DNA from: a virus
Virus record (IMG/VR): IMGVR_UViG_3300031841_000996
Coordinates: 1 to 37,349 of that record
Direction: 5' to 3' (one strand)
DNA: 37,349 nt
Both the position numbers and the translations under genes were made by a program. The notes under the pieces are model-generated. The model was not told where the DNA came from. It searched no databases and saw nothing but the letters and a program-made list of their open reading frames with translations. Shown in pieces: positions 24,687 to 37,349 of the stretch (its first letter is position 1; every line of letters begins with the position of its first letter).

Positions 24687-24688
24687 TA

Positions 24689-24916
24689 ATGAACATTACA
24701 GATGCTCAATACAAAAATGATAGAGATGGCAATCCAGCTTGTATAGTAGCAACGATTGATGGGGTTGAGTGGTTTGTGCCTATTGACACCGCAAATGCCG
24801 CTTATGTAGAAATGATGCGTCAATCTGAAGAAGGCACGCTCACAATAAGTGCAGACACCGAAAATTTATTTGTGCGAATGGAAGCTGGCGAACTGGCTGT
24901 ATCGGATGCTGACTGA
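24689..24916 (+). CDS. Small protein following fibre genes
   Basis: A 75-residue protein starting MNITDAQYKNDRDGNPACIV with TIDGVEWFVPIDTANAAYVE. Proteins with this start recur directly after fibre genes in marine phages, as I recall; a fibre assembly or tip role is plausible but unproven. GGAG lies upstream of ATG 24689. TGATG overlap with the next gene. Confidence 0.65.
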   Translation: MNITDAQYKNDRDGNPACIVATIDGVEWFVPIDTANAAYVEMMRQSEEGTLTISADTENLFVRMEAGELAVSDAD

Positions 24917-25140
24917 TGGAAATGACCAGCCTCATAGACATGCTACTTGGCCTTGTTGTGGCTGGCGTTGCGTGGTTTTTGTCAGAGCAGAACAAAGAGC
25001 AGAAGCGGCTCAACATTTTGCTGAACAAGACCCGCGAAGAATACGCCACGCGAATGGAACTGCGTGACGACATGCGTCAGGTAATGGACGCCCTGCACCG
25101 CGTCGAGGACAAGCTCGACAAGGCGCTTGGCCGTGCCTGA
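24916..25140 (+). CDS. Small membrane-anchored coiled-coil protein
   Basis: A 74-residue protein with one transmembrane segment (residues about 5-22, LIDMLLGLVVAGVAWFL) and a charged helix afterwards that ends in a heptad pattern (VMDALHRVEDKLDKAL). This type of protein is frequent near phage lysis genes; it could be a holin-associated or spanin-like factor, but no lipobox or signal peptide cleavage site is seen. Confidence 0.6.
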   Translation: MEMTSLIDMLLGLVVAGVAWFLSEQNKEQKRLNILLNKTREEYATRMELRDDMRQVMDALHRVEDKLDKALGRA

Positions 25141-25346
25141 TGTTCAAGGTAATCGTACTGGCCTGTAGCGTAGCCTATCCCGAACACTGCTGGGAATATC
25201 ACGACACAACTGGCCCGTGGGCTACCAGAGAGCAATGCGTCAGCCGGGCGCATGAGATGGGAAACGACATTGCGTCTATTCATAAGGGCGCGATCATGCC
25301 ACAATCATATAAGTGTAAGCCACTGGCCCCGGGGAGACTGACATAA
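25140..25346 (+). CDS. Small Cys-containing protein, 68 residues
   Basis: MFKVIVLACSVAYPEHCWEY begins with a short hydrophobic stretch and four Cys occur in all. The pattern with HDTTGPWATREQCVSRAHEM is known to me as a recurrent uncharacterised marine phage protein in this position. The hydrophobic start might act as a secretion signal. It overlaps neighbours by one base on both sides (TGATG and TAATG). Confidence 0.6.
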   Translation: MFKVIVLACSVAYPEHCWEYHDTTGPWATREQCVSRAHEMGNDIASIHKGAIMPQSYKCKPLAPGRLT

Positions 25347-25840
25347 TGGTAGTTGCAGAGGCGCTGGCTGGTATTGCTCTGGTTAAGGCCGCAGTGGACG
25401 GCATAAAAACCACAATCGGTACGGCTAAGGACGTGTCTAGCATTGCGTCTGAAATTGACGCATTATTCAAAGGCACAGACGAGGTGCAAAAAAAGGCATC
25501 GAAAAAATCAGGCATTAGCTTGGGTGAGCAGTTTGGTGTTGATACGGTTGCAAAAGAGATTATTGACCAACGCCTTGCGGCAGAGGCGCTTAGGGAAGTT
25601 GCGTCGATGGTCGACATGCGCTTTGGACACGGGACGTGGGGGTCAATTCTTGCGGAACGGCAAAAACGTATTCAAGAGCAACGAGAGGCGGCGGCGAAGG
25701 CGCGAAAGGAAGCTCAGATGGCGCACGATGAGTTGATGGAAAACATCAAAACATTTTTAATTATTGTGACTGTGGTGGCACTAGCCGTCGCGATTATTGT
25801 GGCTATGATGGTCGGAGTGGCAACAGCAACGATCATTTAG
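25346..25840 (+). CDS. Conserved membrane protein of the lysis region
   Basis: A 164-residue protein with an amphipathic N-terminal helix (VVAEALAGIALVKAAVDGIK), a central part with FGVDTVAKEIIDQRLAAEAL and MVDMRFGHGTW, a charged helix, and one C-terminal transmembrane segment (residues about 136-160). The family recurs in marine phages near lysozyme genes. Its activity is unknown; topology would leave most of it on one face of the inner membrane. Confidence 0.65.
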   Translation: MVVAEALAGIALVKAAVDGIKTTIGTAKDVSSIASEIDALFKGTDEVQKKASKKSGISLGEQFGVDTVAKEIIDQRLAAEALREVASMVDMRFGHGTWGSILAERQKRIQEQREAAAKARKEAQMAHDELMENIKTFLIIVTVVALAVAIIVAMMVGVATATII

Positions 25841-26254
25841 ATGAGCGAAACTACAACCGGGCTGATTGGCGAATATATCGCCGCAAGCGCCATTTTGGGT
25901 ATGGGCTGGCGCGTATCTCTTTGTCAGCAGGATCGGGTGGATTTGGTAGCGTGGAAAGACAATGTCTATATTCGGGTTCAAGCAAAGACTGCGAGTTTAC
26001 TGTGCGATAAAGATGGTCGATCTCCGCGTCACCACTTCCAACTGGGTCACGGCTGTAAAGCAAAACACTTACCTACCAAGGACGATTACGATGTTTGTTG
26101 CCTTGTATCACCGGACGCTCGGCGATGCCTGTTCATGCCGGTTACGTCTATTCGGCAATACTCGATGCGACTGTCGGCGTCTCGGTTCCACGCTGAGGCG
26201 GAAGCTGAGAGCTGGCATCGAGCGATTGAAGTCATTATGGAAATGAGACGATGA
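25841..26254 (+). CDS. PD-(D/E)XK nuclease-like protein
   Basis: A 137-residue protein with GEYIAASAILGMGW at the start (Glu11), DRVDLVAWKD (Asp34) and IRVQAKTAS (Gln47, Lys49). Glu-Asp-QxK in this order fits the restriction-endonuclease fold seen in small phage and bacterial endonucleases. It lies between membrane and lysozyme genes in the late operon and starts with ATG directly after the previous stop. It could process DNA late in infection, or be cargo. Four-base overlap with the lysozyme gene. Confidence 0.65.
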   Translation: MSETTTGLIGEYIAASAILGMGWRVSLCQQDRVDLVAWKDNVYIRVQAKTASLLCDKDGRSPRHHFQLGHGCKAKHLPTKDDYDVCCLVSPDARRCLFMPVTSIRQYSMRLSASRFHAEAEAESWHRAIEVIMEMRR

Positions 26255-26700
26255 ACAAAGACCAATTACGCAAAGAGCTGGCCGAAGATGAGGGCTGTAA
26301 ATACGAGATTTATCTCGACACGCACGCCCTGCCAACTTTCGGTATCGGCCACCTAATAGTAGAGGCTGACCCCGAATACGATCAGCCGGTTGGCACGCCG
26401 GTGTCAGAAGAGCGCGTGCGCCGAGCGTTTAACCTCGACGTCATTGTGACGCTAGAGGACTGCGACCGGCTGTACCCAGACTTCGACGACCTGCCAGAAG
26501 AGTGTCAGCTCATCATTGCGAACATGATGTTTAACCTCGGCTACCCTCGGATGTCCAAATTCAAAAACATGAAGGCCGCAGTCGATGCGCGTGATTGGAA
26601 CCGGGCCGCAGACGAGATGGTCGACAGCCGCTGGCACGATCAGGTTCCTAACCGGGCAAAGCGTCTGGTCGGCCGCATGAGGAACTTGGTTAATGGGTGA
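26251..26700 (+). CDS. Endolysin, T4-type lysozyme (GH24)
   Basis: A 149-residue muramidase cleaving the N-acetylmuramic acid to N-acetylglucosamine link in peptidoglycan. The triad spacing Glu14, Asp23, Thr29 (EDEGCKYEIYLD, then PTFGIGH) matches T4 lysozyme exactly, and NMMFNLGYPRMSKFKNMKAA and SRWHDQVPNRAKRLV are typical of the helical lobe. There is no signal sequence or SAR segment, so it needs a holin to reach the wall. Confidence 0.92.
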   Translation: MNKDQLRKELAEDEGCKYEIYLDTHALPTFGIGHLIVEADPEYDQPVGTPVSEERVRRAFNLDVIVTLEDCDRLYPDFDDLPEECQLIIANMMFNLGYPRMSKFKNMKAAVDARDWNRAADEMVDSRWHDQVPNRAKRLVGRMRNLVNG

Positions 26701-26902
26701 AGTCACAATGGAGCGCTTTTTGCGCTGGAAGATATTACCCCGGCTAATGATGATCGCCTTTACGGTGATGGCTTGGAATGTGTGTGACTGGTTTATGTCG
26801 CTCGGAGCTGAGGCGACGACACAGCAGACGGCTTTCGTCAGCACCATAGTCGGTGCCGCCACGGGGGCGTTTGCAGTTTGGATGGGACACGAAGCGAAAT
26901 GA
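26693..26902 (+). CDS. Small two-helix membrane protein, holin or antiholin candidate
   Basis: A 69-residue protein with two hydrophobic helices (about 15-33 and 46-64) separated by a short polar turn and ending in a charged tail. Two starts are well placed: ATG 26693 with GAGGAA 8 bases ahead and ATG 26708 with GGGTGA 7 bases ahead. They would give products differing by five residues. It directly follows the lysozyme gene and precedes a 3-TM holin gene. Confidence 0.65.
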   Translation: MGEVTMERFLRWKILPRLMMIAFTVMAWNVCDWFMSLGAEATTQQTAFVSTIVGAATGAFAVWMGHEAK

Positions 26903-27285
26903 TTACAGCACTGATAGGCCCAGCAATGAACATAGCCTCAACGTGGCTAGAAGGCCGCGTGGAGCGCACTAAGGCAGAAACAGGCGCAAAGGTAGCCAAA
27001 GCAAAGGCAGAGGCCGTCATAGCCGAAAAACAGGCGACAGGCGAAATCGACTGGGACTTGAAGATGGCAGACGCCAGCGCCACAAGCTGGAAAGACGAGT
27101 GGCTGACACTGCTGTTTAGCGTGCCGCTGATACTCGCCTTCTGTGGCGACTGGGGGCGTGAGATAGTGGCTGAGGGGTTTGCGGCGCTTGAGGCGATGCC
27201 GACGTTCTATCAGTACACGCTCGGCACGATTGTTGCGGCCAGCTTCGGCGTCAGGTCAGCGACAAAATTCTTCGGCAAAAAGTAA
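26899..27285 (+). CDS. Holin, GTA 3-TM type
   Basis: A 128-residue protein of the holin family found in gene transfer agents and alphaproteobacterial phages. Its helical, Lys/Ala-rich first half (AETGAKVAKAKAEAVIAEKQ) is followed by DEWLTLLFSVPLILAFC, then AMPTFYQYTLGTIVAASFGV and a basic end. ATG 26899 overlaps the preceding TGA; an upstream start would run into the previous gene. It is the last gene of the late operon and ends next to the convergent terminator. Confidence 0.8.
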   Translation: MITALIGPAMNIASTWLEGRVERTKAETGAKVAKAKAEAVIAEKQATGEIDWDLKMADASATSWKDEWLTLLFSVPLILAFCGDWGREIVAEGFAALEAMPTFYQYTLGTIVAASFGVRSATKFFGKK

Positions 27286-27286
27286 A

Positions 27287-27308
27287 ACCCCCAGCCGAAG
27301 CTGGGGGT
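27287..27308 (-). terminator. Convergent hairpin terminator with UUCG loop
   Basis: ACCCCCAGC (27287-27295) pairs perfectly with GCTGGGGGT (27300-27308). Read on the minus strand the loop is UUCG and the stem is followed by TTTTAC and TTTTT, a classical intrinsic terminator for the leftward operon. On the plus strand the T tract is poor, so it may also stop late transcripts less efficiently. Confidence 0.9.
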
Positions 27309-27318
27309 CAGGGAGAAA

Positions 27319-27465
27319 CTATTTTATAGGGCTTTTTTCTCTGACCTTGAGCATTATGCTCTTGCTGGTGGTTGGCCGGTTAGTCCGACCCAGCCGATCC
27401 ACCGGTGGCTTTACGACCGGTATGGCGAGCGCCTTTTTCAATTCTTCAACTGTTGGTGTCTTCAT
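27319..27465 (-). CDS. Small basic protein at the end of the leftward operon
   Basis: A 48-residue protein beginning MKTPTVEELKKALAIPVVKP. ATG at 27465 has AGGGG 7 bases ahead, while a longer reading start inside the neighbouring gene lacks one. It ends 10 bases before the convergent terminator. Lys/Arg- and Pro-rich C-terminus. Function unknown. Confidence 0.55.
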   Translation of the reverse strand: MKTPTVEELKKALAIPVVKPPVDRLGRTNRPTTSKSIMLKVREKSPIK

Positions 27466-27640
27466 TGTTTTCCCCTGTTCTATAGCGGCGGTGATATCTG
27501 TCGCCGGTTTGCATGTTCTCAAACGTGACGGTGTAGCCGTCGTCCATCTCTTCGACATATCTGACCAGCACGCTGATCTGACGGCCTCGATCGTCGACCA
27601 GCCACGCCCACTGGCCGACGGTGTACGGGACGGCGCTCAC
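27446..27640 (-). CDS. Hypothetical protein, 64 residues
   Basis: GTG start at 27640 overlaps the TGA of the upstream gene (GTGA), with GAGGCGGCG ahead. The product is beta-like with YTVGQWAWLVDDRGRQISVL and GYTVTFENMQTGDRYHRRY, a compact SH3-like strand pattern. No family recognised. It overlaps the next gene by 20 bases. Confidence 0.55.
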   Translation of the reverse strand: MSAVPYTVGQWAWLVDDRGRQISVLVRYVEEMDDGYTVTFENMQTGDRYHRRYRTGENNEDTNS

Positions 27641-28026
27641 TGCGCCGCCTCTTTTGACAGTTTGATTTTTGCGTCAAAGTCGTCTGACAATTTGCCTAAA
27701 CCAGCGGCCAATTTTTTTTGCTTTTCAGTCAAACAGCCAATTTTCGATATAGCTAGTTTCAACTCTATCGCCACACGAATTTGGTTTGCAATCTTTTCGC
27801 TTCGTGCGTAACGACCTGTTTCTGGGTTGAGGAAAGCACGACCACGATGCGGATCGTCTGTTTGAAAAAAGCCGCGCAATTCGCGCTTTGCTACACCGTC
27901 AACGCCTTGGCTGACTGTCACAGACGCCCAGTAGTATGTACTGCGACCATTTTCATCTGTGTGCCTGTTCCTATAGACATCTTGAATTGTGCGAGTGTCG
28001 CGGATTTCGTTTACATAAATATTCAT
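27637..28026 (-). CDS. Hypothetical protein, 129 residues
   Basis: The start at 28026 follows AAGGGAG, part of a 43-base junction element duplicated at 32246-32292. The N-terminal half contains GRSTYYWASVTVSQGVDG and RGFFQTDDPHRGRAFLNPET; the C-terminal half is helical and Lys-rich. I recognise no domain. It belongs to the run of small genes transcribed from the promoter at 28359-28386. Confidence 0.6.
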   Translation of the reverse strand: MNIYVNEIRDTRTIQDVYRNRHTDENGRSTYYWASVTVSQGVDGVAKRELRGFFQTDDPHRGRAFLNPETGRYARSEKIANQIRVAIELKLAISKIGCLTEKQKKLAAGLGKLSDDFDAKIKLSKEAAQ

Positions 28027-28045
28027 TTTATTCTCCCTTGTTTGG

Positions 28046-28068
28046 GGTGGGGCCGTTAGGCCACCACC
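28046..28068 (-). promoter_or_regulatory. Stop-codon hairpin element, copy 1
   Basis: On the minus strand a GGTGG-T-GGCC arm pairs with GGCC-CCACC around the loop TAAC, leaving one bulged T. The loop contains the TAA stop of the upstream gene (28056-28058), and the ribosome binding site of the next gene follows within 10 bases. A second copy with compensating changes lies at 32270-32292. Confidence 0.75.
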
Positions 28069-28328
28069 TTAGAATATTTGCTGATGAAACGCTCAAGCTG
28101 ACGCGCCTCACGGCGGTAGTCTGGGTCAGTCATGTTGTCACCACTGTGGCAGATGTCCAACCTGTTCTCAGCTTCGCCTATGATGTATGCGTCACTGAAT
28201 TTTTCGTTGACCTCTGCCTCAACATCGTCAGATGTCAAAAGCCCATCCTCACAGTCAATGACTTCAAACTGGTAAACCAGAGCGTCACACTTAAAGGCGT
28301 CTTTAACGATTGGTCTTAACTTGGTCAT
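28056..28328 (-). CDS. Acidic hypothetical protein, 90 residues
   Basis: The first gene after the internal minus-strand promoter. GGGAG precedes the ATG at 28328. The sequence is acidic (TSDDVEAEVNEKFSDAYIIG) with a basic C-terminal helix (YRREARQLERFISKYSKVVA). No known family. Small acidic early proteins are often host-takeover or antirepressor factors, but nothing here proves that. Confidence 0.6.
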   Translation of the reverse strand: MTKLRPIVKDAFKCDALVYQFEVIDCEDGLLTSDDVEAEVNEKFSDAYIIGEAENRLDICHSGDNMTDPDYRREARQLERFISKYSKVVA

Positions 28329-28358
28329 ATCAATTCTCCCTTTCTTAATTGATAACTC

Positions 28359-28386
28359 ATTATATCAGATTGATAGCATAACGCAA
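28359..28386 (-). promoter_or_regulatory. Sigma70-type promoter for the distal leftward genes
   Basis: On the minus strand TTGCGT (28386-28381) and a perfect TATAAT (28364-28359) are separated by 16 bases, about 30 bases before ATG 28328. It lies after a terminator, so genes 28328 to 27319 can be expressed independently of the genes upstream. The palindrome at 28397-28413 sits 10 bases behind the -35 box. Confidence 0.75.
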
Positions 28387-28396
28387 GCACTAATAA

Positions 28397-28413
28397 TGCG
28401 ACAAAATGTCGCA
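28397..28413. promoter_or_regulatory. Palindromic operator candidate TGCGAC-N5-GTCGCA
   Basis: TGCGAC (28397-28402) and GTCGCA (28408-28413) form a perfect inverted repeat with an AAAAT spacer, adjacent to the promoter above and downstream of a LexA-like DNA-binding gene. The minus-strand half TGCGACATTTT also occurs at 1973-1983. A binding site for the phage's own repressor is a reasonable guess. Confidence 0.5.
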
Positions 28414-28422
28414 CACAAAAAA

Positions 28423-28444
28423 GACCCCCGCCGAAACGGGGGCC
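28423..28444 (-). terminator. Intrinsic terminator behind the LexA-like gene
   Basis: Read on the minus strand, GGCCCCCG pairs with CGGGGGTC (one G-U) around a six-base loop and is followed by TTTTTT (28422-28417). Just ahead, AGTCGC/GCGACT (28445-28450 and 28480-28485) and TCGGGT/ACCCGA (28459-28464 and 28473-28478) form a nested hairpin directly after the stop codon. Confidence 0.88.
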
Positions 28445-28483
28445 AGTCGCTCAATTTATCGGGTGGGAGGAAACCCGACGCGA

Positions 28484-28696
28484 CTACAGTAACCGAAAGC
28501 CGCGCGCGATGCCAGCGGTCTTTTCTGCGGCGCCGCGCTTAACCAGCGCGTTCATATATCTGGCGCACTGTGTCATCGACTTGCCGGTCTTCTCGGCCAG
28601 CTCACGGATCGACGGGTAATAGCCGTACTTGCGGTGGAACCGCGCTATCACCAGCCTCATGTTGTGCTGTTTCGGCGTAAGCGGCACGTCAATCAT
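28484..28696 (-). CDS. LexA-type winged-helix DNA-binding protein without protease domain
   Basis: A 70-residue protein matching the LexA N-terminal DNA-binding domain: LTPKQHNMRLVIARFHRKYG, YPSIRELAEKTGKSMTQCAR, then LVKRGAAEKTAGIARGFRL. The self-cleaving peptidase half of LexA is absent, so it cannot respond to DNA damage by autocleavage. ATG 28696 has GAGG at 6 bases; a GTG at 28699 is less likely. It overlaps the exonuclease gene and is followed by hairpins, a terminator and a palindromic operator candidate, consistent with a local repressor. Confidence 0.8.
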   Translation of the reverse strand: MIDVPLTPKQHNMRLVIARFHRKYGYYPSIRELAEKTGKSMTQCARYMNALVKRGAAEKTAGIARGFRLL

Positions 28697-29654
28697 CACG
28701 CACCTCTTTGATCGTCAGCGTGTTCTGGCGCACCGTGCGGGCTGGCTTGCCGGGGGTGGCTGGTTTGGGCGGCTGTGCCTTGAACTGCCGCATCGGCCAG
28801 CGCACCGAGTATTTGGTATTGCCGACGATGCCGGTGGCCTGCTCGTGACTGCCCATAAACTCTTTCAGCGCCGCCTCAGCCTCGTCGATGTCGGCCTCGG
28901 CCGCACGCTTGGCGTCTTTGGCATTAACGAGCTGGGCGAGCCACTCAGCCTCGGTGGCGGGCAATTCCAGCGGCTCGGCGCCGTCGTCTACCCGTGGGTA
29001 GGCGGTGTTGCCGTCCGAGGATGACAGCACCGGATACCACTCGATGTCGAACTTGCGGCGCTCAAAGTCTTCGACCGCGTCGATGATCTTCGATTGCACG
29101 GCCGCGTCGGCCTGATACAAGAAGATGCGTAGCTCTACGCCGCCGTATAAGACGCACACAGCGCCCCAAGTACACTTGCTGACCATCAACTGCCCTTGGA
29201 GCTGTAGCGGGCCTCTGTGGGGCGCTGGCGCCTCTTCTGGCTTGGCGCTAGTGAGCTTGCTTTCCAGAACACCGGTGCCGGTCACAAACACTCGCCCGTT
29301 GGGGCAGATGATGCCCTTGTCGTAGTCGGTGTCGACCCAGCCGCCGACGCCCGCATCTGCGGTGCCGTCGAGCGACGCCGCAAAAGGTATCTTGTCGTGG
29401 AACAGCGCGTCGTGATCCAGCTTCAAGTCGTCGAGGCCGAGGCGGTTAGCCGCCTCGGTCAGTATCATGCCTTCCAGCGCGTCGCCCCAATCGCAGGCTT
29501 CGTTGCCGTTGAATGGCTTGGGGTCAGGCTTGCCCTCGATGTCTGCCAGCACGCTTGCCAGCAGATCGTTTTGGGTGTCGTATGGCGACGCGTTTAATAG
29601 CGCGGGCAGTCTTGATCCCGTGACAATATTATTGGGTGTTTTTTTACCGACCAT
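28689..29654 (-). CDS. YqaJ-like phage exonuclease
   Basis: A 321-residue PD-(D/E)XK exonuclease related to lambda Exo, which resects double-stranded ends for recombination. The motifs are GSRLPALLNASPYDTQNDLL, GDALEGM (Glu61), LDGTADAG (Asp96), GVLESKLTS (Glu131, Lys133) and LQLQGQLMVSKCTWGAVCVL. All catalytic residues are present. AAGGAG precedes ATG 29654, and TAATG couples it to the upstream gene. Its annealing partner may be the SSB-like protein at 34256, but no Redbeta or RecT-type gene is visible. Confidence 0.85.
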   Translation of the reverse strand: MVGKKTPNNIVTGSRLPALLNASPYDTQNDLLASVLADIEGKPDPKPFNGNEACDWGDALEGMILTEAANRLGLDDLKLDHDALFHDKIPFAASLDGTADAGVGGWVDTDYDKGIICPNGRVFVTGTGVLESKLTSAKPEEAPAPHRGPLQLQGQLMVSKCTWGAVCVLYGGVELRIFLYQADAAVQSKIIDAVEDFERRKFDIEWYPVLSSSDGNTAYPRVDDGAEPLELPATEAEWLAQLVNAKDAKRAAEADIDEAEAALKEFMGSHEQATGIVGNTKYSVRWPMRQFKAQPPKPATPGKPARTVRQNTLTIKEVRDD

Positions 29655-29998
29655 TACTTTTCTCCTTGTGCTTTTAGACGTTCAACTTTTGCCTTCCAGA
29701 TGCCAGCGCGGCGGTTAGCCACGTTTATCTTTTTTGTGTAGTGACGTTCAGCAATTTTGAAAATGCTTTTCTCTGTATCGAGCGCCTCTTCAAGATTGCT
29801 GGCACGATCACGCCACTCGTCCACCTGAGTTTTCATTGCGTTTACGCGGTCAGACATTTTGCGATTGTAGTCGTGCGACTGATCCACCAAGTCGCGCAAC
29901 GCAGTCAACAATATTATAAAGTCAGCGCAGGCGCGCTCACCGTTCATAATCTTTTCATCCATATCTTTAATGATTTTGCAGTGTTTAGATGTATTCAT
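29654..29998 (-). CDS. Coiled-coil hypothetical protein, 114 residues
   Basis: Start ATG 29998 has GGAG 9 bases ahead; an upstream start would overlap the endonuclease gene. The protein is helical with long charged heptads (MSDRVNAMKTQVDEWRDRAS, NLEEALDTEKSIFKIAERHY) and a basic end (RRAGIWKAKVERLKAQ). No family recognised. It lies directly ahead of the exonuclease and could be a cofactor. Confidence 0.6.
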   Translation of the reverse strand: MNTSKHCKIIKDMDEKIMNGERACADFIILLTALRDLVDQSHDYNRKMSDRVNAMKTQVDEWRDRASNLEEALDTEKSIFKIAERHYTKKINVANRRAGIWKAKVERLKAQGEK

Positions 29999-29999
29999 T

Positions 30000-31001
30000 T
30001 CAATTACTCCACTTGTTAGATTTACGCAGGTTTTGATTGTTGCCGTGTACCGGTTCAAGGCCAACGGCTTGTTCTGGCGTCCAGCCATTTCTGATACGCC
30101 AAGATATGGTGCTTGAGTTTATACCAGTTGCCCTTGCCGCTTCTGATATAGAACCAAAGCCCTTTATCTTTATTGAATTGGTGTGAGGCCGTCTTGGCTC
30201 AAGCTCAAATGCTTCGCCTATTGTCCATCCATTTGACAATCTCTGTGTTACGCACCCAGCCCTAATCCCAAAATGCTTTGATGCTTTTGACACACTAGGA
30301 AAAGACAAGCCGCCAACGGTGATCCTAGACCCGAAGCCAGTTGGGCGGTCTCGCTTTTTAATTTCAAATATTTCGTTCAAAGGCCAGCCCTGCTTTTTGC
30401 GAGAATGATATAAATTTTCTTTTATACCGTAATACTTGCAGGCCGCCTTTATTGAGGCAAACTCCTTATCGTTGATACATACTGTTTTTCCACAAGAATA
30501 CAGCTTGTGATGTCTTCCATTGTATTTCTTTATGCCTGCTGGCGGGGCATCAATCTCTACCGCCTGACGAGGTGTCCATCCAGCCCTTAAAATTCTGTGC
30601 CTAATGTTATGGACGCTGATAGGAAAATGCTCTGCAAGATCGCCGCACCCATAATATTTTTTCCCGTCAATTTCGTACAAGTCGCCAGCGGCTAGTTTAA
30701 AAGTAGGACAGCCACCGGACTTTACGTTATACCCGTTTGGGTATCTTGTATTTAACTTCTGTATCCAGTACCTTTCCGCACGGCTCAATGTTTTTAGGTT
30801 TTCAGTCTTGTCCAAAACCTCAAACTTAAAGACGTCTTCACCGTAAACCCTAATAGCGTGAGCTATGGTTTTGTGGCTTCCTTTATTAGAGTTTCTGGCT
30901 CCGGCAAAATGTTCAGCCACTCTAGGCTTTAAACTTTTTCTGCGAGTAAGCCCAACGTACTGCATGCCGTTGACCGTGTTGGTTGCCAAGTAAACAATCA
31001 T
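30000..31001 (-). CDS. GIY-YIG homing endonuclease with four DNA-binding repeats
   Basis: A 333-residue free-standing endonuclease. The N-terminal catalytic domain (1-95) has VYLATNTVNGMQYVGLT (Tyr4, Tyr15, Gly17), Arg27, Glu76 and Asn84. The rest carries four beta-beta-helix modules at about 109-152, 173-215, 226-268 and 277-317; three end in GWT..(Q/E)A(V/F)E, typical of NUMOD-like DNA-binding repeats. I chose ATG 31001 (GGGGG 5-6 bases ahead, TGATG junction); ATG 31013 is possible. DNA is richer in A/T than its neighbours, consistent with a mobile gene inserted between two phage genes. Confidence 0.85.
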   Translation of the reverse strand: MIVYLATNTVNGMQYVGLTRRKSLKPRVAEHFAGARNSNKGSHKTIAHAIRVYGEDVFKFEVLDKTENLKTLSRAERYWIQKLNTRYPNGYNVKSGGCPTFKLAAGDLYEIDGKKYYGCGDLAEHFPISVHNIRHRILRAGWTPRQAVEIDAPPAGIKKYNGRHHKLYSCGKTVCINDKEFASIKAACKYYGIKENLYHSRKKQGWPLNEIFEIKKRDRPTGFGSRITVGGLSFPSVSKASKHFGIRAGCVTQRLSNGWTIGEAFELEPRRPHTNSIKIKGFGSISEAARATGINSSTISWRIRNGWTPEQAVGLEPVHGNNQNLRKSNKWSN

Positions 31002-31294
31002 CACTGCCCCCATTTCTTATTCAAAAATTGCAGGCACTTCATTAGCGGCGAGAATGGGTCGGTGCGGCCATACACTAAGCGGCCGGTCAGTAGCGGCTCG
31101 GAATAAGCGTCGGCACCATCAAGTTTTAACTTCCAGCTACTGTCTGGGCTGTCATCCACCATATTATACGACTGATGCAGGTAGTAGGTTTCTAACACCT
31201 TGCCATTGCGATCTGCGGCTTCAATCAAAAAGCCCCAAAGCTCTGCGCTTGACCGTATGTCGAAAGACACATCGTTTTTAGGAAACATATACAT
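31001..31294 (-). CDS. Hypothetical protein, 97 residues
   Basis: A protein starting MYMFPKNDVSFDIRSSAELW with GFLIEAADRNGKVLETYYLH. GGGGGG precedes the ATG. No recognised family. The C-terminal TDPFSPLMKCLQFLNKKWGQ is helical. It directly precedes the endonuclease gene in the leftward operon, overlapping it by one base. Confidence 0.55.
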   Translation of the reverse strand: MYMFPKNDVSFDIRSSAELWGFLIEAADRNGKVLETYYLHQSYNMVDDSPDSSWKLKLDGADAYSEPLLTGRLVYGRTDPFSPLMKCLQFLNKKWGQ

Positions 31295-31295
31295 A

Positions 31296-31427
31296 TCACT
31301 GCCCCCCGAAATACTGCGCCGACTTAACCATCAGCGCAAATAGGTTCCACTCAGTCGTTACCGCGTTAGTACACATCACAATCGCAAACGACACCAAAAA
31401 CAACATTCCGAAAAACTCTTTAATCAT
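31296..31427 (-). CDS. Small membrane protein, 43 residues
   Basis: ATG at 31427 with GGAG 6 bases ahead, stop at 31296-31298. The product MIKEFFGMLFLVSFAIVMCT followed by a polar part has one transmembrane helix (residues about 5-20). It overlaps the upstream GNAT-like gene by 8 bases and ends one base before the next start. Such small early membrane proteins may act in superinfection exclusion, which is speculation. Confidence 0.55.
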   Translation of the reverse strand: MIKEFFGMLFLVSFAIVMCTNAVTTEWNLFALMVKSAQYFGGQ

Positions 31428-31980
31428 TGTGATCTCCAGATAATTCCTTCATGCGATCCAACCCCCTTCTGGCAAACTCACGGTCGTCCACGTCCGGCTG
31501 GCGACCATCAATGCAAATCCATCTCACCAGACCGTCAGTGATGGTGCCTTTGCGATCGTGTTCGACTTTCCATTGGTTCATGCTGAACCCGGCGCCCATA
31601 AGAGACGCGCCGCTTTCGTTTGGCCGGGTGTAGGTCACGATGACTTTGTAGCCCATTGCAAAGCAGGCTTGCTTCACCTTGCCGATCAAGTAACTTGCGG
31701 CGTGCGTTTCAGCATACTTTGGGTTTACACAAAGCCGCCGCAATTCGATGTAGCCGGGGTACTTCGACCAAGCCGACGAACACCGGTCGACGGTGGCAAT
31801 GCCAATAAGGCCAAGCGGGAAGCCGTGACGCTCGTGAAATCCCGCACCGTACATCAGCATGCCCTGATGCGCGCCAATCGAAAACATGTGGCGCTTCAGC
31901 GGCTTTGAGTGTCGGTGAAAATGCCGGACGAAGGATTGCGCCTCGTCCAGCTTCAAGTGTGTGTGGCATATCTTTTTCAT
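31420..31980 (-). CDS. GNAT-like phage protein (XF1762 type)
   Basis: A 186-residue protein of the acetyltransferase fold. FHRHSKPLKRHMFSIGAHQG, IELRRLCVNPKYAETHAASY, CFAMGYKVIVTYTRPNESGA and SLMGAGF form the family pattern seen in many phages (XF1762-like). The substrate is unknown. The GNAT fold also includes the phage Mu Mom protein, which modifies adenine in DNA, so a DNA-modifying role is possible but unproven. AGGAAG precedes ATG 31980. Confidence 0.75.
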   Translation of the reverse strand: MKKICHTHLKLDEAQSFVRHFHRHSKPLKRHMFSIGAHQGMLMYGAGFHERHGFPLGLIGIATVDRCSSAWSKYPGYIELRRLCVNPKYAETHAASYLIGKVKQACFAMGYKVIVTYTRPNESGASLMGAGFSMNQWKVEHDRKGTITDGLVRWICIDGRQPDVDDREFARRGLDRMKELSGDHND

Positions 31981-32250
31981 TTACTTAATCTTCCTAAAGT
32001 AGCCACCCTGCACGACCAGATGCCCAGACCCGTCGCAGGTGTTGTAAAAATCCACATACCTATAGTTGGCGTGGACGCCAGACCGGCCACCCTTGTACAG
32101 CTTCTTGATCTGGACGTATTGGACTGGGTCGATGCCATTCGCGTGCAGGTATCTCGCCGCCTCGTTTTGCGCCTCTTTGATTGATGGGTGCATCACGCCA
32201 AGCACTTTGCTGGTGCCGTCGGCTAAAAATATTTCGCTGAAATATTCCAT
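31981..32250 (-). CDS. Hypothetical protein, 89 residues
   Basis: ATG 32250 follows AAGGGAG, part of the duplicated junction element, so I reject a longer reading start upstream. The product has SIKEAQNEAARYLHANGIDP and a beta-rich C-terminus (GHLVVQGGYFRKIK). No family recognised. It ends immediately before the GNAT-like gene. Confidence 0.6.
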   Translation of the reverse strand: MEYFSEIFLADGTSKVLGVMHPSIKEAQNEAARYLHANGIDPVQYVQIKKLYKGGRSGVHANYRYVDFYNTCDGSGHLVVQGGYFRKIK

Positions 32251-32269
32251 ATTATTCTCCCTTGGTTGG

Positions 32270-32292
32270 GGCGGGGCCGTTAAGCCGCCGCC
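32270..32292 (-). promoter_or_regulatory. Stop-codon hairpin element, copy 2
   Basis: On the minus strand GGCGG-C-GGCT pairs with GGCC-CCGCC around a TAAC loop holding the TAA stop (32280-32282). Compared with copy 1 at 28046-28068, a U-A pair is replaced by C-G and the loop-closing C-G pair by U-G, so pairing is kept while the sequence changes. The spacing to the following AAGGGAG is the same. Confidence 0.75.
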
Positions 32293-32609
32293 TCTTCGCG
32301 CATTGATGCAAGGTCTTGCCAATTTACGGTGTGACCGTTTTTTAATTTCTTGCCGTTGAGGCAATTAAAGATGACTTGGGCGTGCATCTCGCTGACGCCA
32401 CTGACGTCCAATCCGCAATCCAGCATCTTGCTGTGGATGCGACGGCGCTGAGCGATTGACGCGTCGCGCAGGTAGTGGCGATAGGCGTGGTTCCAGAAAT
32501 ATGCGACACCCATATAATCAGGTGTGCCAACAAAGCTATCGTCAAGATTGAAGACGGCCTGAGTAGCGGGCCAAGTGATAGCATTTAGGTTTAATGAATA
32601 ATCCGACAT
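32280..32609 (-). CDS. Hypothetical early protein, 109 residues
   Basis: First gene of the leftward operon. AAGGGAG precedes ATG 32609. It contains YMGVAYFWNHAYRHYLRDAS and RRRIHSKMLDCGLDVSGVSE, and ends in MREEAAA. The family is not known to me. It is likely among the earliest transcribed genes, because the divergent promoter lies about 50 bases upstream. Confidence 0.6.
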   Translation of the reverse strand: MSDYSLNLNAITWPATQAVFNLDDSFVGTPDYMGVAYFWNHAYRHYLRDASIAQRRRIHSKMLDCGLDVSGVSEMHAQVIFNCLNGKKLKNGHTVNWQDLASMREEAAA

Positions 32610-32632
32610 TTTAGTCTCCCTTGTAAATTTAC

Positions 32633-32853
32633 CTGTTTTGTGCCTCTCGACTATTTGAATATGGGCTTTATATTAGTGTACGTCAAGTGCTGTATTTAAC
32701 GAATATTAAGAAAATATCAAAAAAATAGCACTATGCCTTTAATCGCCCATAGAAGCTCACTGACGGGCTTTGGGTGTTTTGGGGCATGTTAGTACCAAAA
32801 AGTTGCTAGAAGCGTTTTTAGCTTCCAGCTTGGATCACAGAAGGGGTCACAAA
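32633..32853. promoter_or_regulatory. Divergent A/T-rich control region
   Basis: About 220 bases between the divergently oriented leftward and rightward early operons. It holds the leftward promoter, an A-rich stretch (about 32700-32730), and a hairpin (GCTAGAAGC 32805-32813 with GCTTCCAGC 32821-32829) in the leader of the rightward genes. I could not identify a convincing rightward promoter. Confidence 0.6.
32658..32686 (-). promoter_or_regulatory. Sigma70-type early promoter for the leftward operon
   Basis: On the minus strand TTGACG (32686-32681) and CATATT (32663-32658) have a 17-base spacer. The -35 box matches 5 of 6 bases and the -10 box 4 of 6. It is the only such pair I found in the divergent region 32633-32853 and points into gene 32609. 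Confidence 0.65.
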
Positions 32854-33063
32854 ATGCCAGAAATTAAACCAGTTTTGCTTCGGCTTCGCACGTCGACGAT
32901 CGAGGCGCTCAAGGGCGAGCTAGAATTATCAGCTCACCGCAGTCAGTCGTCGCTGGCTGACGAGATGCTCGCCAAGCAAATCGCCAGCAACATTCGCCAG
33001 CGGAGCGTGCAGTCATCTCTCGACGGTCAGGGTGGTCGTGTCGGCTTGGAGAAGTTGGGCTGA
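32854..33063 (+). CDS. Ribbon-helix-helix DNA-binding protein
   Basis: A 69-residue protein with PVLLRLRTSTIEALKGELEL SAHRSQSSLADEMLAKQIAS, the strand-helix-helix pattern of Arc/CopG-type regulators. AAGGGG 8 bases before ATG 32854 supports this start over an upstream reading. As the first gene of the rightward operon next to the divergent control region it is a good candidate for an early repressor or switch. The C-terminal tail is Gln/Ser/Gly-rich. Confidence 0.72.
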   Translation: MPEIKPVLLRLRTSTIEALKGELELSAHRSQSSLADEMLAKQIASNIRQRSVQSSLDGQGGRVGLEKLG

Positions 33064-33503
33064 TGGTAAACAGTCGCAACAAGGGGGCCAGCTTCGAAAG
33101 AACGGTGGCTTCAATGCTGAATGACGAGTTTTCGCCCGGCATTACTTTCAAGCGCAACATCCTGCAATATCAGACGGTCGGGATGGACGACCTGACGCCG
33201 AGCGCGCCGTTCCCGTTTAAGCTGGAATTGAAGCGTTACAAAAACTCGGTGTCGCCGGGCTGGTGGGATCAAATCTGTGCGACTTGCAGATCGAGCCACA
33301 ACACGAATGATGCGTTGCCCGCGTTGATCTGGAAGCTCGACCGTCAGCCGATCCAGTGTCGCATACCCATCGAGGCGCTAGTCATGCTGGGTAGGCCGCT
33401 GGCTGGCGACAAGTCCGAGGCATACGACTGGCGTTACACGGCGACGATGTCTTGGGATGAATTTATTTTTGTGTGCCGAGAATTGATAGGGATGAGCAAA
33501 TGA
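33063..33503 (+). CDS. Holliday-junction-resolvase-like nuclease
   Basis: A 146-residue protein with NKGASFERTVASML (Glu12), QTVGMDDLTP (Asp42/Asp43) and FKLELKRYKN (Glu55, Lys57). This Glu-Asp-ExK arrangement matches the Hjc-type resolvase branch of the PD-(D/E)XK fold. WWDQICATCRSS and ALIWKLDRQP are family-typical. Such enzymes resolve branched DNA before packaging. TGATG junction with the upstream gene. Confidence 0.75.
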   Translation: MVNSRNKGASFERTVASMLNDEFSPGITFKRNILQYQTVGMDDLTPSAPFPFKLELKRYKNSVSPGWWDQICATCRSSHNTNDALPALIWKLDRQPIQCRIPIEALVMLGRPLAGDKSEAYDWRYTATMSWDEFIFVCRELIGMSK

Positions 33504-33682
33504 AATATTGGCTAATATTGGTCACGATGACCAGCACTGAGGCGGGCGTGGTCAGCGTCGTGTCAAAACACGAGACGATCAGCGAGTGTCACGTCGCGCT
33601 GACGCAACTGGCGTTTGCCCGGCCGAATGAAGCGACGTATTGCCTGACGACCGAAGACGGCGTCGATTGGAAGTTGAAATGA
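33500..33682 (+). CDS. Hypothetical protein, 60 residues
   Basis: ATG 33500 overlaps the preceding TGA (ATGA) with AGGGATGAG upstream. The product starts MKYWLILVTMTSTEAGVVSV and is a small alpha/beta protein (C-terminal TTEDGVDWKLK). No function known. It is coupled to genes on both sides by 4-base overlaps. Confidence 0.55.
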   Translation: MKYWLILVTMTSTEAGVVSVVSKHETISECHVALTQLAFARPNEATYCLTTEDGVDWKLK

Positions 33683-34203
33683 TGCTGGTTGAAATTCCGC
33701 CAAAAGATTTATCGAAGTGTAGGCAGGCCGCAACTGGCCGCTGGCAACTGGCTCGTATGTCGGGCGTCGGTAATCAAAAAAGAGACAAGAGCCGGGGCGA
33801 CAACGATTTAGATTGGATTGGCGTGCGAGCTGAATACGCCGTTGCCGCACTGTTTCAGTTACCGTATGAGCCGAGCGCCTTGGGCATTGATGACGGCGCT
33901 GACTTGTGGTGCGACCGGGTGAGTATAGACGTGAAGTCGACGTTTCACCGTGACGGTCGTATGTTGTTTAAATCAAAAGACGCTTTCAAAGCGTCAGTTT
34001 GTGTGCTTGTATCTTCAACCGAACAAGAATATGTAATGGACGTCCGGGGGTGGGCGGCACAAAAAGATTTTTACGAACACGCAGAGCAAGTCGACTTGGG
34101 TCACGGGCTTTGCTGGGTTTTACCCGACGAAAAATTACGGCCGTTGCCAGATTTGTGGTGGCGATTAGCCGAAAAAAGAATTGGCCCTGAAAAGCCAATG
34201 TAG
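33679..34203 (+). CDS. PD-(D/E)XK-like protein of unknown function
   Basis: A 174-residue protein with WIGVRAEYAVAALF (Glu52), DDGADLWCDRVSIDVKSTFH (Asp75, Asp84, Lys86) and GRMLFKSKDAF. The core resembles the nuclease fold with D-V-K replacing E-x-K. ATG 33679 overlaps the previous stop; ATG 33682 is equally possible. It may be a second DNA-processing nuclease or an inactive relative. C-terminal RPLPDLWWRLAEKR is helical. Confidence 0.6.
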   Translation: MMLVEIPPKDLSKCRQAATGRWQLARMSGVGNQKRDKSRGDNDLDWIGVRAEYAVAALFQLPYEPSALGIDDGADLWCDRVSIDVKSTFHRDGRMLFKSKDAFKASVCVLVSSTEQEYVMDVRGWAAQKDFYEHAEQVDLGHGLCWVLPDEKLRPLPDLWWRLAEKRIGPEKPM

Positions 34204-34255
34204 CGCCGGTAATCGGCATGTTTGAACTAATGTTGACGTTAAGGAGTTAAAGGTT

Positions 34256-34897
34256 ATGGCATTAGGTTTTAGCACAGAAGCCCGTTCAAGCGGGGACATT
34301 TTACCGATCATCAAATTCGATGCGAAGGGTGGTGACTGGATCAAACAAGACCGCGTCCAAGGGGCCGACGGTACTTGGCAAAAGCAGGAAGAGGACATAG
34401 CGCCGGGCTTCAAATTCGCCGCAGATTTAGACAATATGGAAGTGGGCTGGCTGAGTTTTGCGTCAGGCGCCCCAGACTTTCATATGGTCAAGATCGGCGA
34501 CGCAATGGTGGCGAAGCCAAGCGAAGAGCATAAGCAGGCGTTTCGTATGCGTATTGTGATTAGCGGCGAAACTGGCCCGCGTGAATTTAGCCACAGCGCC
34601 AAGACGGTTCTGCGGGTGGTCGATAAGTTGCACGACCAGTTTATGGCCGAGCGTAGCGCCAATGCGGGCAAGATACCGGTGATCGAAGCCGGTACGCCCG
34701 AGACGATCAAGATGCAGTCGCCGCAGGGTGAGTTGCGTTTTAAGGCGCCGGTTCTGTCCATCGTCAACTGGGTGGATCGCCCAGCCGCAATGGATGCGGC
34801 GGGTAGCGCACCACAAGAACACGCGTCAGCGCCGGTCGCGCCGCCTATGGCGGCAACACCACCGGCCGCCGTCAGCGCAGGCGGCGACCTGTTCTGA
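34256..34897 (+). CDS. Probable single-stranded DNA-binding protein
   Basis: A 213-residue protein. The first 170 residues are beta-rich with GDILPIIKFDAKGGDWIKQD, an aromatic-containing OB-like region and VLSIVNWVDRP. The tail is Pro/Ala-rich and ends GGDLF, echoing SSB tails. The position beside recombination and primase genes supports the role. AAGGAG at 34239-34244 lies about 11 bases before ATG 34256. I rely more on context and the tail than on a strong domain match. Confidence 0.6.
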   Translation: MALGFSTEARSSGDILPIIKFDAKGGDWIKQDRVQGADGTWQKQEEDIAPGFKFAADLDNMEVGWLSFASGAPDFHMVKIGDAMVAKPSEEHKQAFRMRIVISGETGPREFSHSAKTVLRVVDKLHDQFMAERSANAGKIPVIEAGTPETIKMQSPQGELRFKAPVLSIVNWVDRPAAMDAAGSAPQEHASAPVAPPMAATPPAAVSAGGDLF

Positions 34898-34970
34898 TCG
34901 CGTGGCGGGCGGCGGTTTTCCCTTGGCCGTCGCCCGCACCTTCAAGGGAACAGGGGTCGAGGGTTTTTAG

Positions 34971-36812
34971 ATGAGCAATATTGCAAGCTATATAGAGACG
35001 GTGGCGAAAGCCTACTGGGGCGAGCCTAACCAGAAGCGCGGGCATACACTGCGCTGGGGTACACACGGCTCAAAGGAAGTCGACCTACGCAAAGGCACCT
35101 GGTTCGACTTTGAGGCCAACGAGGGCGGCGGGGTAATTTGTCTCGTGCGAAAGTATGAGGGCGCCACGGTGATGGGTAGCATCCCAGACATTTTGGAAAA
35201 GAAGTTTGGCATACAGAAGCAGGCGCAGGTTAAGTTGCAACCGGCGCGGTTTATGAGCGCGGTGTACGACTACACCGACGAACACGGCGAGGTGGTCTAC
35301 CAGATACGCCGCTACGAGCCAAAGACGTTTCGTCAGGTGCGCCCAGACGGTAACGGCGGGTGGTTGCACAACCTAGATGGCGTGACGCCGGTGCCGTATC
35401 GCCTGCACGACATGCTGGCAAAGCCCGACATGCCGGTATTTATCGTCGAGGGCGAGAAGGCGGCCGACCGGCTGGCGCGGCACGGCATCGTAGCCACAAC
35501 AAATAACGGCGGGGCGAAGAACTGGAAGCCGGAGCTGAACCGGTGGTTTGCGGGCCGCAATGTCGTGATCCTGCCGGACAATGATGAGGCGGGGCGCGCT
35601 CACGCGCAAACGGTGGTCGCCAATATCTTTGACGGTGCGGCGGCGGTAAAGATTTGCGAGCTGTCGGGCTTGGGCGATAAGGGCGACGTCGTCGACTACC
35701 TCGCCGGTGGTCGGGATATTGAGGACATGCTAGACGAGGTCAAGGCGGCACCGCTGTTGCTCGCGGCGCCGACGGTCGACGTGGTCGCGGACAACGACAA
35801 CGCGGGCGAGCCGGATGGCGATTACTTCGACTTCGTTGGCGCCAGCTACATACGCAACATGCCGCCGATTGATTGGGTGATTGGCGATGGCGATAGCGGG
35901 ATCATCACGCAACACGGCCTCAGCGTTATGTATGGCGCGCCGGGGGCGGGTAAGTCGTTTATCGCGCTCGATATGGCGCTGTCGATCGCTGAGGGCATCC
36001 CGTGGCAGGGCATGCAGACGCGGCAGGGTAAGGTGCTGTATATCGCCGGTGAGGGCGTTGGCGGGCTTGGCAAGCGCCTCAAGGCGTGGGAAGCACACAA
36101 CGGCCGTCAGGTGGGCGATAATCTTCACGTCTTGCAGGTTGCTGTGAATTTTCGTGAACAAAGCGACGTCGAGAAGCTGATGCGCTCAATCGACCGTGCC
36201 GGTGACGGCTGGACGTGCGTGTTCGTCGACACAGTGGCAAGGTCGCTGGTCGGGGCGGACGAAAACAGCGCGACCGAGCTGGGGCTGTGGGTGGCGGCGG
36301 CGGATAGCCTCAAGGCGCACTGCAAGTGTGCGCTGGTGGGTATTCACCACAGCGGCAAGGACAGCACGCGCGGTATGCGCGGCTCTAGCGCGCTTCTAGG
36401 CGCCGTAGACACGTCGCTGGTGGTCGCAAAAGACGAAAACCTAGTGTATATGCGGTGCGAGAAGCAGAAGGACGCCGAGCCTGCGGATGAGCAGGTGTTC
36501 GAGATGACCGAGGTGGCGCTGATCGACGGGTCGTCCATTGTGCTGACGCGCGTGGACGGCGATGAGGCGCCCAAGAAGCGCAAGTCGGGCGGCCTGTCGG
36601 TAAACCAGCGGTTGGCTCTTGAGGCGCTACAGAACGCGATTATCGAGACGGGTAATAGCGTTGTTTCGTCGACGTTGTGGCACGAGAAACATCGTGAAAA
36701 ATGCCCCGATTTAGACCGCAGAAGGGCTGGCGACGCGCGTCACAAGCTAATTGAGTTTGGAATTGTCGCGGCGGACAGCAAAAAGGTTTGGATAGTAAAT
36801 GAAAACAATTAG
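34971..36812 (+). CDS. Primase-helicase (Toprim + RepA/AAA_25 ATPase)
   Basis: A 613-residue replication protein. Residues 25-65 resemble a primase zinc-binding fold without its Cys residues. A Toprim domain at about 153-235 shows VFIVEGEKAADRLA (Glu160) and VVILPDNDEAG (Asp203, Asp205). A RecA-like ATPase of the RepA type has Walker A YGAPGAGKSF at 321-330, Walker B VFVD at 417-420 and GIHHSGKD at about 464. A C-terminal winged-helix part follows. It likely primes and unwinds the origin with host polymerase. ATG 34971 follows a GGTCGAGGG sequence. Confidence 0.85.
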   Translation: MSNIASYIETVAKAYWGEPNQKRGHTLRWGTHGSKEVDLRKGTWFDFEANEGGGVICLVRKYEGATVMGSIPDILEKKFGIQKQAQVKLQPARFMSAVYDYTDEHGEVVYQIRRYEPKTFRQVRPDGNGGWLHNLDGVTPVPYRLHDMLAKPDMPVFIVEGEKAADRLARHGIVATTNNGGAKNWKPELNRWFAGRNVVILPDNDEAGRAHAQTVVANIFDGAAAVKICELSGLGDKGDVVDYLAGGRDIEDMLDEVKAAPLLLAAPTVDVVADNDNAGEPDGDYFDFVGASYIRNMPPIDWVIGDGDSGIITQHGLSVMYGAPGAGKSFIALDMALSIAEGIPWQGMQTRQGKVLYIAGEGVGGLGKRLKAWEAHNGRQVGDNLHVLQVAVNFREQSDVEKLMRSIDRAGDGWTCVFVDTVARSLVGADENSATELGLWVAAADSLKAHCKCALVGIHHSGKDSTRGMRGSSALLGAVDTSLVVAKDENLVYMRCEKQKDAEPADEQVFEMTEVALIDGSSIVLTRVDGDEAPKKRKSGGLSVNQRLALEALQNAIIETGNSVVSSTLWHEKHREKCPDLDRRRAGDARHKLIEFGIVAADSKKVWIVNENN

Positions 36813-36822
36813 TTATCGAAAA

Positions 36823-36954
36823 ATGTCCGGTGTCCGCCGGACAGTGTCCGGTAAAAGCGGACGTTGTCCGTCCTGTCCGGTTTCACTAGGAACCGGACGG
36901 ACAACCGGACGGACGGACGGACTGAAGAAAAAAGGGGTTAATTATGGTGGCTAA
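36823..36954 (+). CDS. Possible 43-residue ORF across the GTCCG array
   Basis: ATG 36823 to TAA 36952-36954 gives a Gly/Arg/Thr-rich peptide with one CPSC pair. The frame stays open mainly because the GTCCG/CGGAC repeats contain no stops. Overlap with the next gene by 11 bases fits the coupled style, but there is no clear ribosome site. Low confidence. Confidence 0.25.
   Translation: MSGVRRTVSGKSGRCPSCPVSLGTGRTTGRTDGLKKKGVNYGG
36825..36922. repeat. Dense GTCCG/CGGAC array, iteron or hairpin region
   Basis: Within 98 bases the pentamer GTCCG occurs 5 times on the left side (36825, 36832, 36846, 36866, 36875) and its complement CGGAC 8 times (36838, 36858, 36894, 36898, 36906, 36910, 36914, 36918). 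GTCCTGTCCGGTT (36870-36882) pairs with AACCGGACGGAC (36891-36902) except for one bulge, around an 8-base loop. The region directly follows the primase-helicase gene, so a replication origin or replication-control site is possible. Confidence 0.7.
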
Positions 36955-37349
36955 AAAGCGTGTGGCGAGAGGTAAGCCGAAGACGAACAAGGTGTACTAT
37001 CAGCCGAGCCAAGGGGCGTTGAAGCGTCAGCAGGCGGCGTTGCACAGGTATGATGACGAGGTGAGTAGGCTGGAGCGTAAGTGGGGTGTCGACAGATTGC
37101 CTTGGCTTGTGCCGGTAGAGTTGCGTGACCGGTTTTACGAACAGCTCGACAAGCTCAATGCGGCTATCGATAAGTGCGAGGGCGTTGAGCATGAGGTCGA
37201 GGTGACGCTCAGGGGTTGCGCCGCCATCGAGCGTGCGGCGATAGAGGGTGGTGCGGAACCGCTGACCGGCGACTATATCGAGGGCAGGATGCCGGATGGC
37301 ACGGTGCTGGCGATAACGGCCAATGGGTACGAGGCGAGCAAGGTCGCGC
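36944..37349 (+). CDS. Conserved phage protein, second copy (3' truncated)
   Basis: ATG 36944 has AAAGGGG 6-7 bases ahead. Its basic N-terminus (MVAKKRVARGKPKTNKVYYQ) is missing from the left copy because that copy starts later. From 36996 it aligns without gaps to bases 1-354, with 28 base differences but only about five amino acid changes. It runs off the window after 135 codons. It is either the same gene meeting itself in a permuted genome, or a tandem paralogue. See the left copy for the C-terminus. Confidence 0.8.
   Translation, partial: MVAKKRVARGKPKTNKVYYQPSQGALKRQQAALHRYDDEVSRLERKWGVDRLPWLVPVELRDRFYEQLDKLNAAIDKCEGVEHEVEVTLRGCAAIERAAIEGGAEPLTGDYIEGRMPDGTVLAITANGYEASKVA

Follow-up and report, generated by a model that had tools for sequence, protein, structure and literature searches.

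A recurrent hairpin with a stop codon in its loop marks gene-exchange junctions in phages of unrelated lineages

Introduction

The DNA considered here, called the window below, is a stretch of 37,349 nucleotides (nt) from the virus record IMGVR_UViG_3300031841_000996. On its minus strand, two gene junctions carry almost the same 23-base hairpin, each with the stop codon of the upstream gene in its loop. The locus raises the question of what a sequence that folds, ends a gene and recurs behind a different gene is for. We read it as a portable mRNA hairpin between cistrons. In this view it ends accessory genes, protects both the following ribosome site and the end of the message, and forms a seam for gene exchange, a reading to which we give about an even chance (roughly 0.5).

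Results

Two hairpins in the window

Copy A reads GGTGG-T-GGCC-TAAC-GGCC-CCACC (28068-28046) and copy B reads GGCGG-C-GGCT-TAAC-GGCC-CCGCC (32292-32270), with the coordinates and architecture that a first-pass annotation, made from the letters of this DNA, had described. The TAA in each loop does end the upstream gene (X), as that annotation proposed: copy A encodes V V A and the stop of a 90-residue protein, and copy B encodes A A A and the stop of a 109-residue protein. The identical ribosome site reported after both copies was found again, since AAGGGAGAATAA lies 3' of each; after each hairpin come CCAA(A/C)CAAGGGAGAATAA and the ATG of the downstream gene (Y). From copy A to copy B, a U-A pair becomes C-G and the loop-closing C-G becomes U-G, again as described. 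The predicted fold energies are -18.1 kcal/mol (copy A) and -17.1 kcal/mol (copy B), each on a 46-nt stretch. With no more than 3 mismatches allowed, the pattern had two matches in the window and none in 100 shuffles. The features of the two junctions are as follows (bp, base pairs; aa, amino acids).

28046..28068, minus strand: hairpin copy A; 5-bp arm, U bulge, 4-bp arm, UAAC loop
28056..28328, minus strand: gene X-A, 90 aa; stop codon inside the loop of copy A
28033..28039, minus strand: Shine-Dalgarno AAGGGAG of Y-A
27637..28026, minus strand: gene Y-A, 129 aa; start 29 nt past the X-A stop
32270..32292, minus strand: hairpin copy B; 5-bp arm, C bulge, 4-bp arm, UAAC loop
32280..32609, minus strand: gene X-B, 109 aa; opens the leftward operon, stop inside the loop of copy B
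32257..32263, minus strand: Shine-Dalgarno AAGGGAG of Y-B
31981..32250, minus strand: gene Y-B, 89 aa (MEYFSEIF...); downstream of copy B

A family of hairpins at unrelated gene ends

A degenerate pattern, GGYGGNGGCYTAACGGCCCCRCC, matched at least 120 stretches in IMG/VR, and the reversed pattern, used as a control there, matched none. Across many uncultured phages, dozens of small, unrelated genes end in this hairpin with hardly a letter changed, and a listing of its contexts revealed very diverse flanking sequences both upstream and downstream. It lies almost always in the direction of the gene and is then followed by a Shine-Dalgarno (SD) site and a start codon. Scans with one arm left free revealed a second large subfamily, GGCGGCGGCTTAACAGCCCCGCC. 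In total, 201 distinct TAAC hairpins with a downstream ribosome site were counted, of which at most one (in locus L051) is plainly a chance match. Among 84,980 bacterial and archaeal species the pattern matched once, on a Microthrix contig; because a longer frame runs through the TAAC of that match, it was treated as chance and not as a true copy. Rfam gave no match at the gathering score, and none on either window hairpin. The first-pass annotation had called the hairpin a real RNA element, a claim that it staked in part on further copies in related phages. Many were found in other phages, with an invariant loop and with compensatory and wobble changes on the sense strand, and this sequence evidence supports the claim.

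In 135 of 141 distinct copies, the frame that ends at the TAA is the longest open frame, so that the stop codon lies in the loop as a rule; one copy, in record G001, directly follows a TGA instead of holding the stop. The 5' arm and loop contain the final three codons of the upstream gene and its stop; the encoded C-terminus is -AAA in 101 of the 141, and others have -AVA, -VVA or -VAA. The distance from stop to start varies between 21 and 44 nt, which speaks mildly against tight reinitiation, a role that the first-pass annotation had suggested as possible beside protection of mRNA ends and protein binding. The loop was UAAC in all 176 copies of the standard register; these had been found by their TAAC, and a separate search in which the loop was left free returned TAAC in 87 of 87 cases. 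With its U-N-A-C loop closed by a pair, the hairpin has the form of a UNAC tetraloop. Such loops are known to take GNRA-like folds and can mimic GNRA loops (PMC5311481), and UAAC loops have been seen in that fold with outside stabilisation (PMC12306022).

The carriers belong to unrelated lineages. An SU10-type portal scored over the cut-off in 9 of 21 carriers, and a second group comprises G003, G004, G005, G015 and G028. Three others, G008, G001 (GC content 0.64) and G010 (GC content 0.68), have almost no proteins in common with the other carrier groups. Jumbo phages of Brevundimonas (Dolichocephalovirinae) carry one copy, at a gene end and with the stop in the loop. This copy, at 1501-1523 of L132 (ON529851.1), is an exact match to the element; the relative Kikimora has TGA where it has TAA, and convergence in a GC-rich genome is a possible origin. 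The nearest cultured relative of the window by protein is phage C72C1 (67-73% in portal and terminase), in which the hairpin is absent, and positions 19053-37349 of the window had no near nucleotide match in the phage collection. We infer that the carriers are marine phages.

Selection on the stem

Pairing was counted in sets gathered without a pairing filter. At the loop-closing pair 10-15 we counted C-G 71 times, U-A 51 times, U-G 10 times and C-A once; at pair 3-21 the counts were C-G 106, U-A 4, U-G 9 and C-A 0. Wobble pairs that exist on the sense strand only thus stood at 19:1 against the converse (sign test, p = 2e-5), so what was proposed for the two window copies, a structure preserved on the minus (sense) strand only, extends to the wider family. 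In the 26 distinct variants, where two pairs carry the two-sided changes, both the covariation score (0.224) and the share of paired cells were higher than in any of 500 shuffles or any slid version. The stem is also kept where peptide or spacing changes, by a moved bulge (GGCGCGGGCC), by loss of the bulge (AGGTGGGGCC) or by a re-made 3' arm (GGCGGCGGCTTAACAGCCGCC), and the hairpin is 96-98% identical where the preceding X gene is 77-79% identical.

These data bear on whether the conserved end could be a protein-level tag, in which a C-terminal -AAA, present in 101 of 141 copies, would mark early proteins for ClpXP-type turnover. In the standard register the third codon positions 4 and 7 are invariant, but the second positions 3 and 6 vary (Ala to Val), so RNA (or single-stranded DNA), and not the -AAA peptide, is under selection; the codon-position pattern is the opposite of protein selection. 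Bulge-shift variants encode -ARA, -VWA and -GGA while the stem is kept, and the untranslated 3' arm is conserved as well. The substitution pattern largely refutes coding selection on -AAA, and we consider such a tag extremely unlikely.

Position in transcription units

Copy A ends the first gene after a terminator and a TATAAT; copy B ends X-B, which comes first in the leftward operon and lies behind a promoter-like sequence.

28423..28444, minus strand: intrinsic terminator (GGCCCCCGTTTCGGCGGGGGTC + TTTTTT) from the terminator scan; closes the preceding unit just upstream of X-A
28359..28364, minus strand: TATAAT, candidate -10 box upstream of X-A; read by eye, absent from the promoter-scan list
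32658..32686, minus strand: promoter-like TTGACG-17-CATATT upstream of X-B

The first-pass annotation had overlooked that both copies close a gene at the head of a likely transcription unit and that the element is widespread and shuffled. Gene calls for the family came from a simple script, with errors; by these calls, 49% of 116 hairpin-closed genes are preceded by a divergent gene or by a gap of 90 nt or more, 22% come after another hairpin and 10% lie in tight packing, compared with 16%, 11% and 59%, respectively, of other genes. The genes upstream of the hairpin are mostly promoter-proximal. A leader nearly identical to that of X-B also precedes other X genes in other carriers. This leader, cacttgacgta..cccatattcaaatagtcgagaggcacaaaacaggtaaa (window 32640-32720, minus strand), is common to the first genes of many carriers, and those genes differ.

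A GC-rich stem at a gene end could be a transcription terminator or attenuator. However, no U tract follows the stem, where CCCCAACC..AAGGGAG is typical instead; the terminator scan calls the true terminator at 28444-28423 but not the hairpin; and a same-strand gene lies 25-44 nt further on in almost every case, which leaves this explanation very unlikely. An RNase III site of the T7 type was rejected because it needs a duplex of about 20 bp and the hairpin offers about 9 bp.

Gene exchange at the hairpin

An all-against-all comparison of 129 loci revealed that shared sequence tends to start at -10 to +10 of the element, or to stop just past its 3' end, up to the SD/start region. Across 152 junctions, 53 upstream and 65 downstream protein families occur in 115 combinations. 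The probability that two members of a family have the same partner across the hairpin is 0.15 for upstream and 0.19 for downstream families; at the outer junctions of these genes, where no hairpin stands, it is 0.34 and 0.62. As presence of the element was the criterion by which loci were selected, these figures are within-locus contrasts and not genome-wide rates. In other phages, starts resembling that of Y-B come after hairpins that close several different X genes.

Units of gene plus hairpin are present or absent between relatives, exactly from hairpin to hairpin (L016/L013, L116/L117, L099/L039 and L094/L127), or between the conserved leader and the next gene via SD homology (L110/L042, L116/L049 and L011/L125). 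A hairpin stands at matching distance from shared flanks in G012 and G013, two near relatives (terminase 94% and 91%), and the adjoining genes differ. Together these comparisons show that genes on either side have been exchanged repeatedly at the hairpin, which itself stayed in place. Its role as the seam of gene shuffling, placed after promoter-proximal genes, was missed by the earlier interpretation. Most genes on either side of the hairpin match no known family.

The same data suit a recombination linker whose sole effect is to provide homology for exchange, with no function as RNA. The element is a short shared sequence at which homology starts or stops, with breakpoints piled up at its edges and exact hairpin-to-hairpin units; the 3' arm tends to go with the Y gene and the 5' arm with the X gene; and phage mosaicism has been proposed to arise through conserved boundary sequences (PMC3029335). 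A linker could do without a hairpin, though, and crossover in the loop predicts U-G and C-A equally often, against the observed 19:1. Since it also leaves the structure-keeping bulge shifts and the UUCG hairpin described below unexplained, we regard a pure linker as improbable.

A more specialised route would be an integron-like site, at which a site-specific recombinase would read the single strand in its folded form and pass gene cassettes through the hairpin. Integron attC cassettes join a gene and a hairpin into an exchangeable unit, which the exactly exchanged gene-plus-hairpin units resemble, and GCCTAAC fits the integron core RYYYAAC. A serine recombinase is the commonest downstream family (15 junctions, behind many different genes), and a tyrosine integrase is another (5 junctions). 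Nevertheless, the hairpin, with 23 nt, a 9-bp stem and one bulge, has no attC architecture, lacking the long fold with paired R boxes; units also enter hairpin-free junctions via SD homology; and there is no constant integrase, serine recombinases occurring in 5 of 22 carriers, integrases in 3 of 22, and neither in the window. We therefore think an integron-like site quite improbable, and these enzymes were rejected as movers of the units because they are too rare among carriers. Loci with the serine recombinase right after the hairpin are L013, L016, L036, L052, L073, L116 and L117.

Other hairpins at the same kind of junction

The same phages carry a second hairpin, GGCGGGGC-TTCG-GCCCCGCC, after TAATCAACC, which combines a cUUCGg loop with the same 3' arm, spacer and ribosome site at the same kind of junction (L045, L047, L055, L121, L181 and others). 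Other stable hairpins precede other ribosome sites. The first-pass annotation had known of no described element with a stop codon in the loop; our literature search for stop-in-loop intercistronic hairpins likewise found none, but the arrangement is not peculiar to this element, since unrelated stop-in-loop hairpins, some of them terminators, close further genes in these phages. They occur at 13 other gene families, compared with about 0-5 for most positions shifted within the gene end. Together with the UUCG hairpin, they suggest that the hairpin, and not its sequence alone, matters. Examples with unrelated stems are L119 1911, L071 1664 and 1864, and L014 1913 (script coordinates). A third recurrent hairpin, of the GCGCCCGGC..GTCGTG..GCCGGGCGC type, stands directly before the ribosome site behind different genes in L024, L034, L107, L121 and others.

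These hairpins weigh on the main rival explanation, a protein-binding operator, in which a phage or host RNA-binding protein would read the bulged UAAC hairpin and switch the translation or stability of early genes. It ranks as main rival because the gene 43 operator of T4 and RB69, also a phage mRNA hairpin near a ribosome site, has a -UAAC- loop, a loop that was also selected in SELEX (systematic evolution of ligands by exponential enrichment) with gp43 (PMC3014915). The invariant loop, the stem sequence kept beyond pairing and a dispersal that fits a regulon likewise point to a bound protein. That operator, however, serves one gene, overlaps its ribosome site and is bound by DNA polymerase (PMC3014915), whereas the present hairpin serves dozens of genes, and the SD lies 3' of its stem without overlap, the start being 21-44 nt from the stop. 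A UUCG loop at the same kind of junction and a bulge that moves or is lost also fit a specific binder poorly, and as some carriers have almost no proteins in common, a common phage-encoded binder is unlikely. On balance we judge an operator unlikely, if still the strongest competitor.

Other features of the window

The genes flanking both copies have no Pfam or PHROG match. Between the two hairpins, 30000-31013 (minus strand) encodes a GIY-YIG homing endonuclease with an I-TevI-like DNA-binding domain, and 31420-31980 (minus strand) encodes a protein resembling Mom-like DNA modification proteins. A YqaJ/RecE-like recombination exonuclease (28689-29654, minus strand), present in 10 of 21 hairpin carriers, is a candidate driver of the shuffling. 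Positions 1-300 and 36996-37295 are 91% identical, as if they were a diverged terminal repeat or the ends of a near-circular contig.

Discussion

In the mechanism that we propose, ribosomes translating gene X would melt the hairpin to reach the UAA, and the hairpin would refold after their release. We infer three effects of the element: refolding after termination, protection of the end of the X message and shielding of the Y ribosome site. The refolded hairpin would hinder 3' exonucleases, stabilising the X message, and would stop the X coding RNA from pairing with the strong SD, a few to about 20 nt downstream. The following gene, whichever it is, could then be translated independently, so that any X would be compatible with any Y. 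Near-identical copies, with the conserved SD region, would meanwhile provide the homology through which recombination inserts, deletes or swaps units of gene plus hairpin. A strong SD is present at 89% of hairpin junctions, and the computed unpaired probability of ribosome sites is 0.549 at hairpin junctions against comparison values of 0.474-0.485, which lends modest support to shielding.

Several points weigh against this portable mRNA hairpin. The gap in accessibility is small and is a computed one. RNA is the simpler reading of the pairing asymmetry, but single-stranded sense DNA would also fit and gives an equal asymmetry. Pair 4-20 never varies, so sequence is kept beyond the need for pairing; structural shielding does not call for this, and a protein site or recent spread would explain it. 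As the copies are related by descent, the p-values overstate their independence. Finally, large records hold 1 or 2 copies each among about 50-60 genes, so that the function is not generally required.

Stable intercistronic hairpins are familiar from T4 (cUUCGg), T7 and the Rhodobacter puf operon; they too are stable and lie between operon genes, and the same phages have a cUUCGg version, but the element described here has a bulged stem, a UNAC loop that holds the stop and near-identical copies at unrelated genes. The start-associated repeats known as SAS/ESAS occur in cluster K mycobacteriophages and cluster EF Microbacterium phages, and inverted repeats of 17-18 bp in clusters O and EG (PMC7302621). 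Like the hairpin, these are short conserved repeats, some palindromic, at small gaps before the starts of several genes per phage; unlike it, they are intergenic, tied to starts, described within one cluster and present in about 8-12 copies per genome (PMC7302621). The hairpin lies nearly always upstream of a strong SD, but at 21-44 nt from stop to start and in only 1-2 copies per genome; half of it belongs to the upstream gene, whose stop is in the loop, and it joins exchanged gene pairs in unrelated lineages. In exchange, the hairpin resembles the boundary sequences of mosaic phages, short sequences shared at gene boundaries through which genes are exchanged (PMC3029335).

A literature text search for GGCCTAACGGCC returned nothing related; one matching paper, on fire blight, was judged unrelated by its title. 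To our knowledge, mosaic-phage boundary sequences have never been described as one folding, stop-bearing RNA element, or across lineages. Start-associated repeats (PMC7302621), boundary sequences (PMC3029335) and intercistronic hairpins are each already known; a literature search that covered few subscription-journal papers returned no single folding element that unites a stop codon, a tetraloop and a seam for exchange in unrelated phages.

In the mosaic genomes of phages, nothing visible usually signals a junction; here, a 23-base folding element marks the junction, and a stop codon can sit within a conserved tetraloop. The hairpin offers a handle for finding exchangeable early accessory genes in metagenomes, nearly all of them of no known function, and a direct way to test whether genes can be exchanged tolerably because RNA insulates them. 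More tentatively, it is possible that the element is a self-spreading closer of genes, a mobile module of 23 bases combining gene end, stop codon, insulating hairpin and recombination seam. If so, unrelated phages would build their early operons from interchangeable accessory genes in an integron-like manner, with homologous recombination in place of the integrase.

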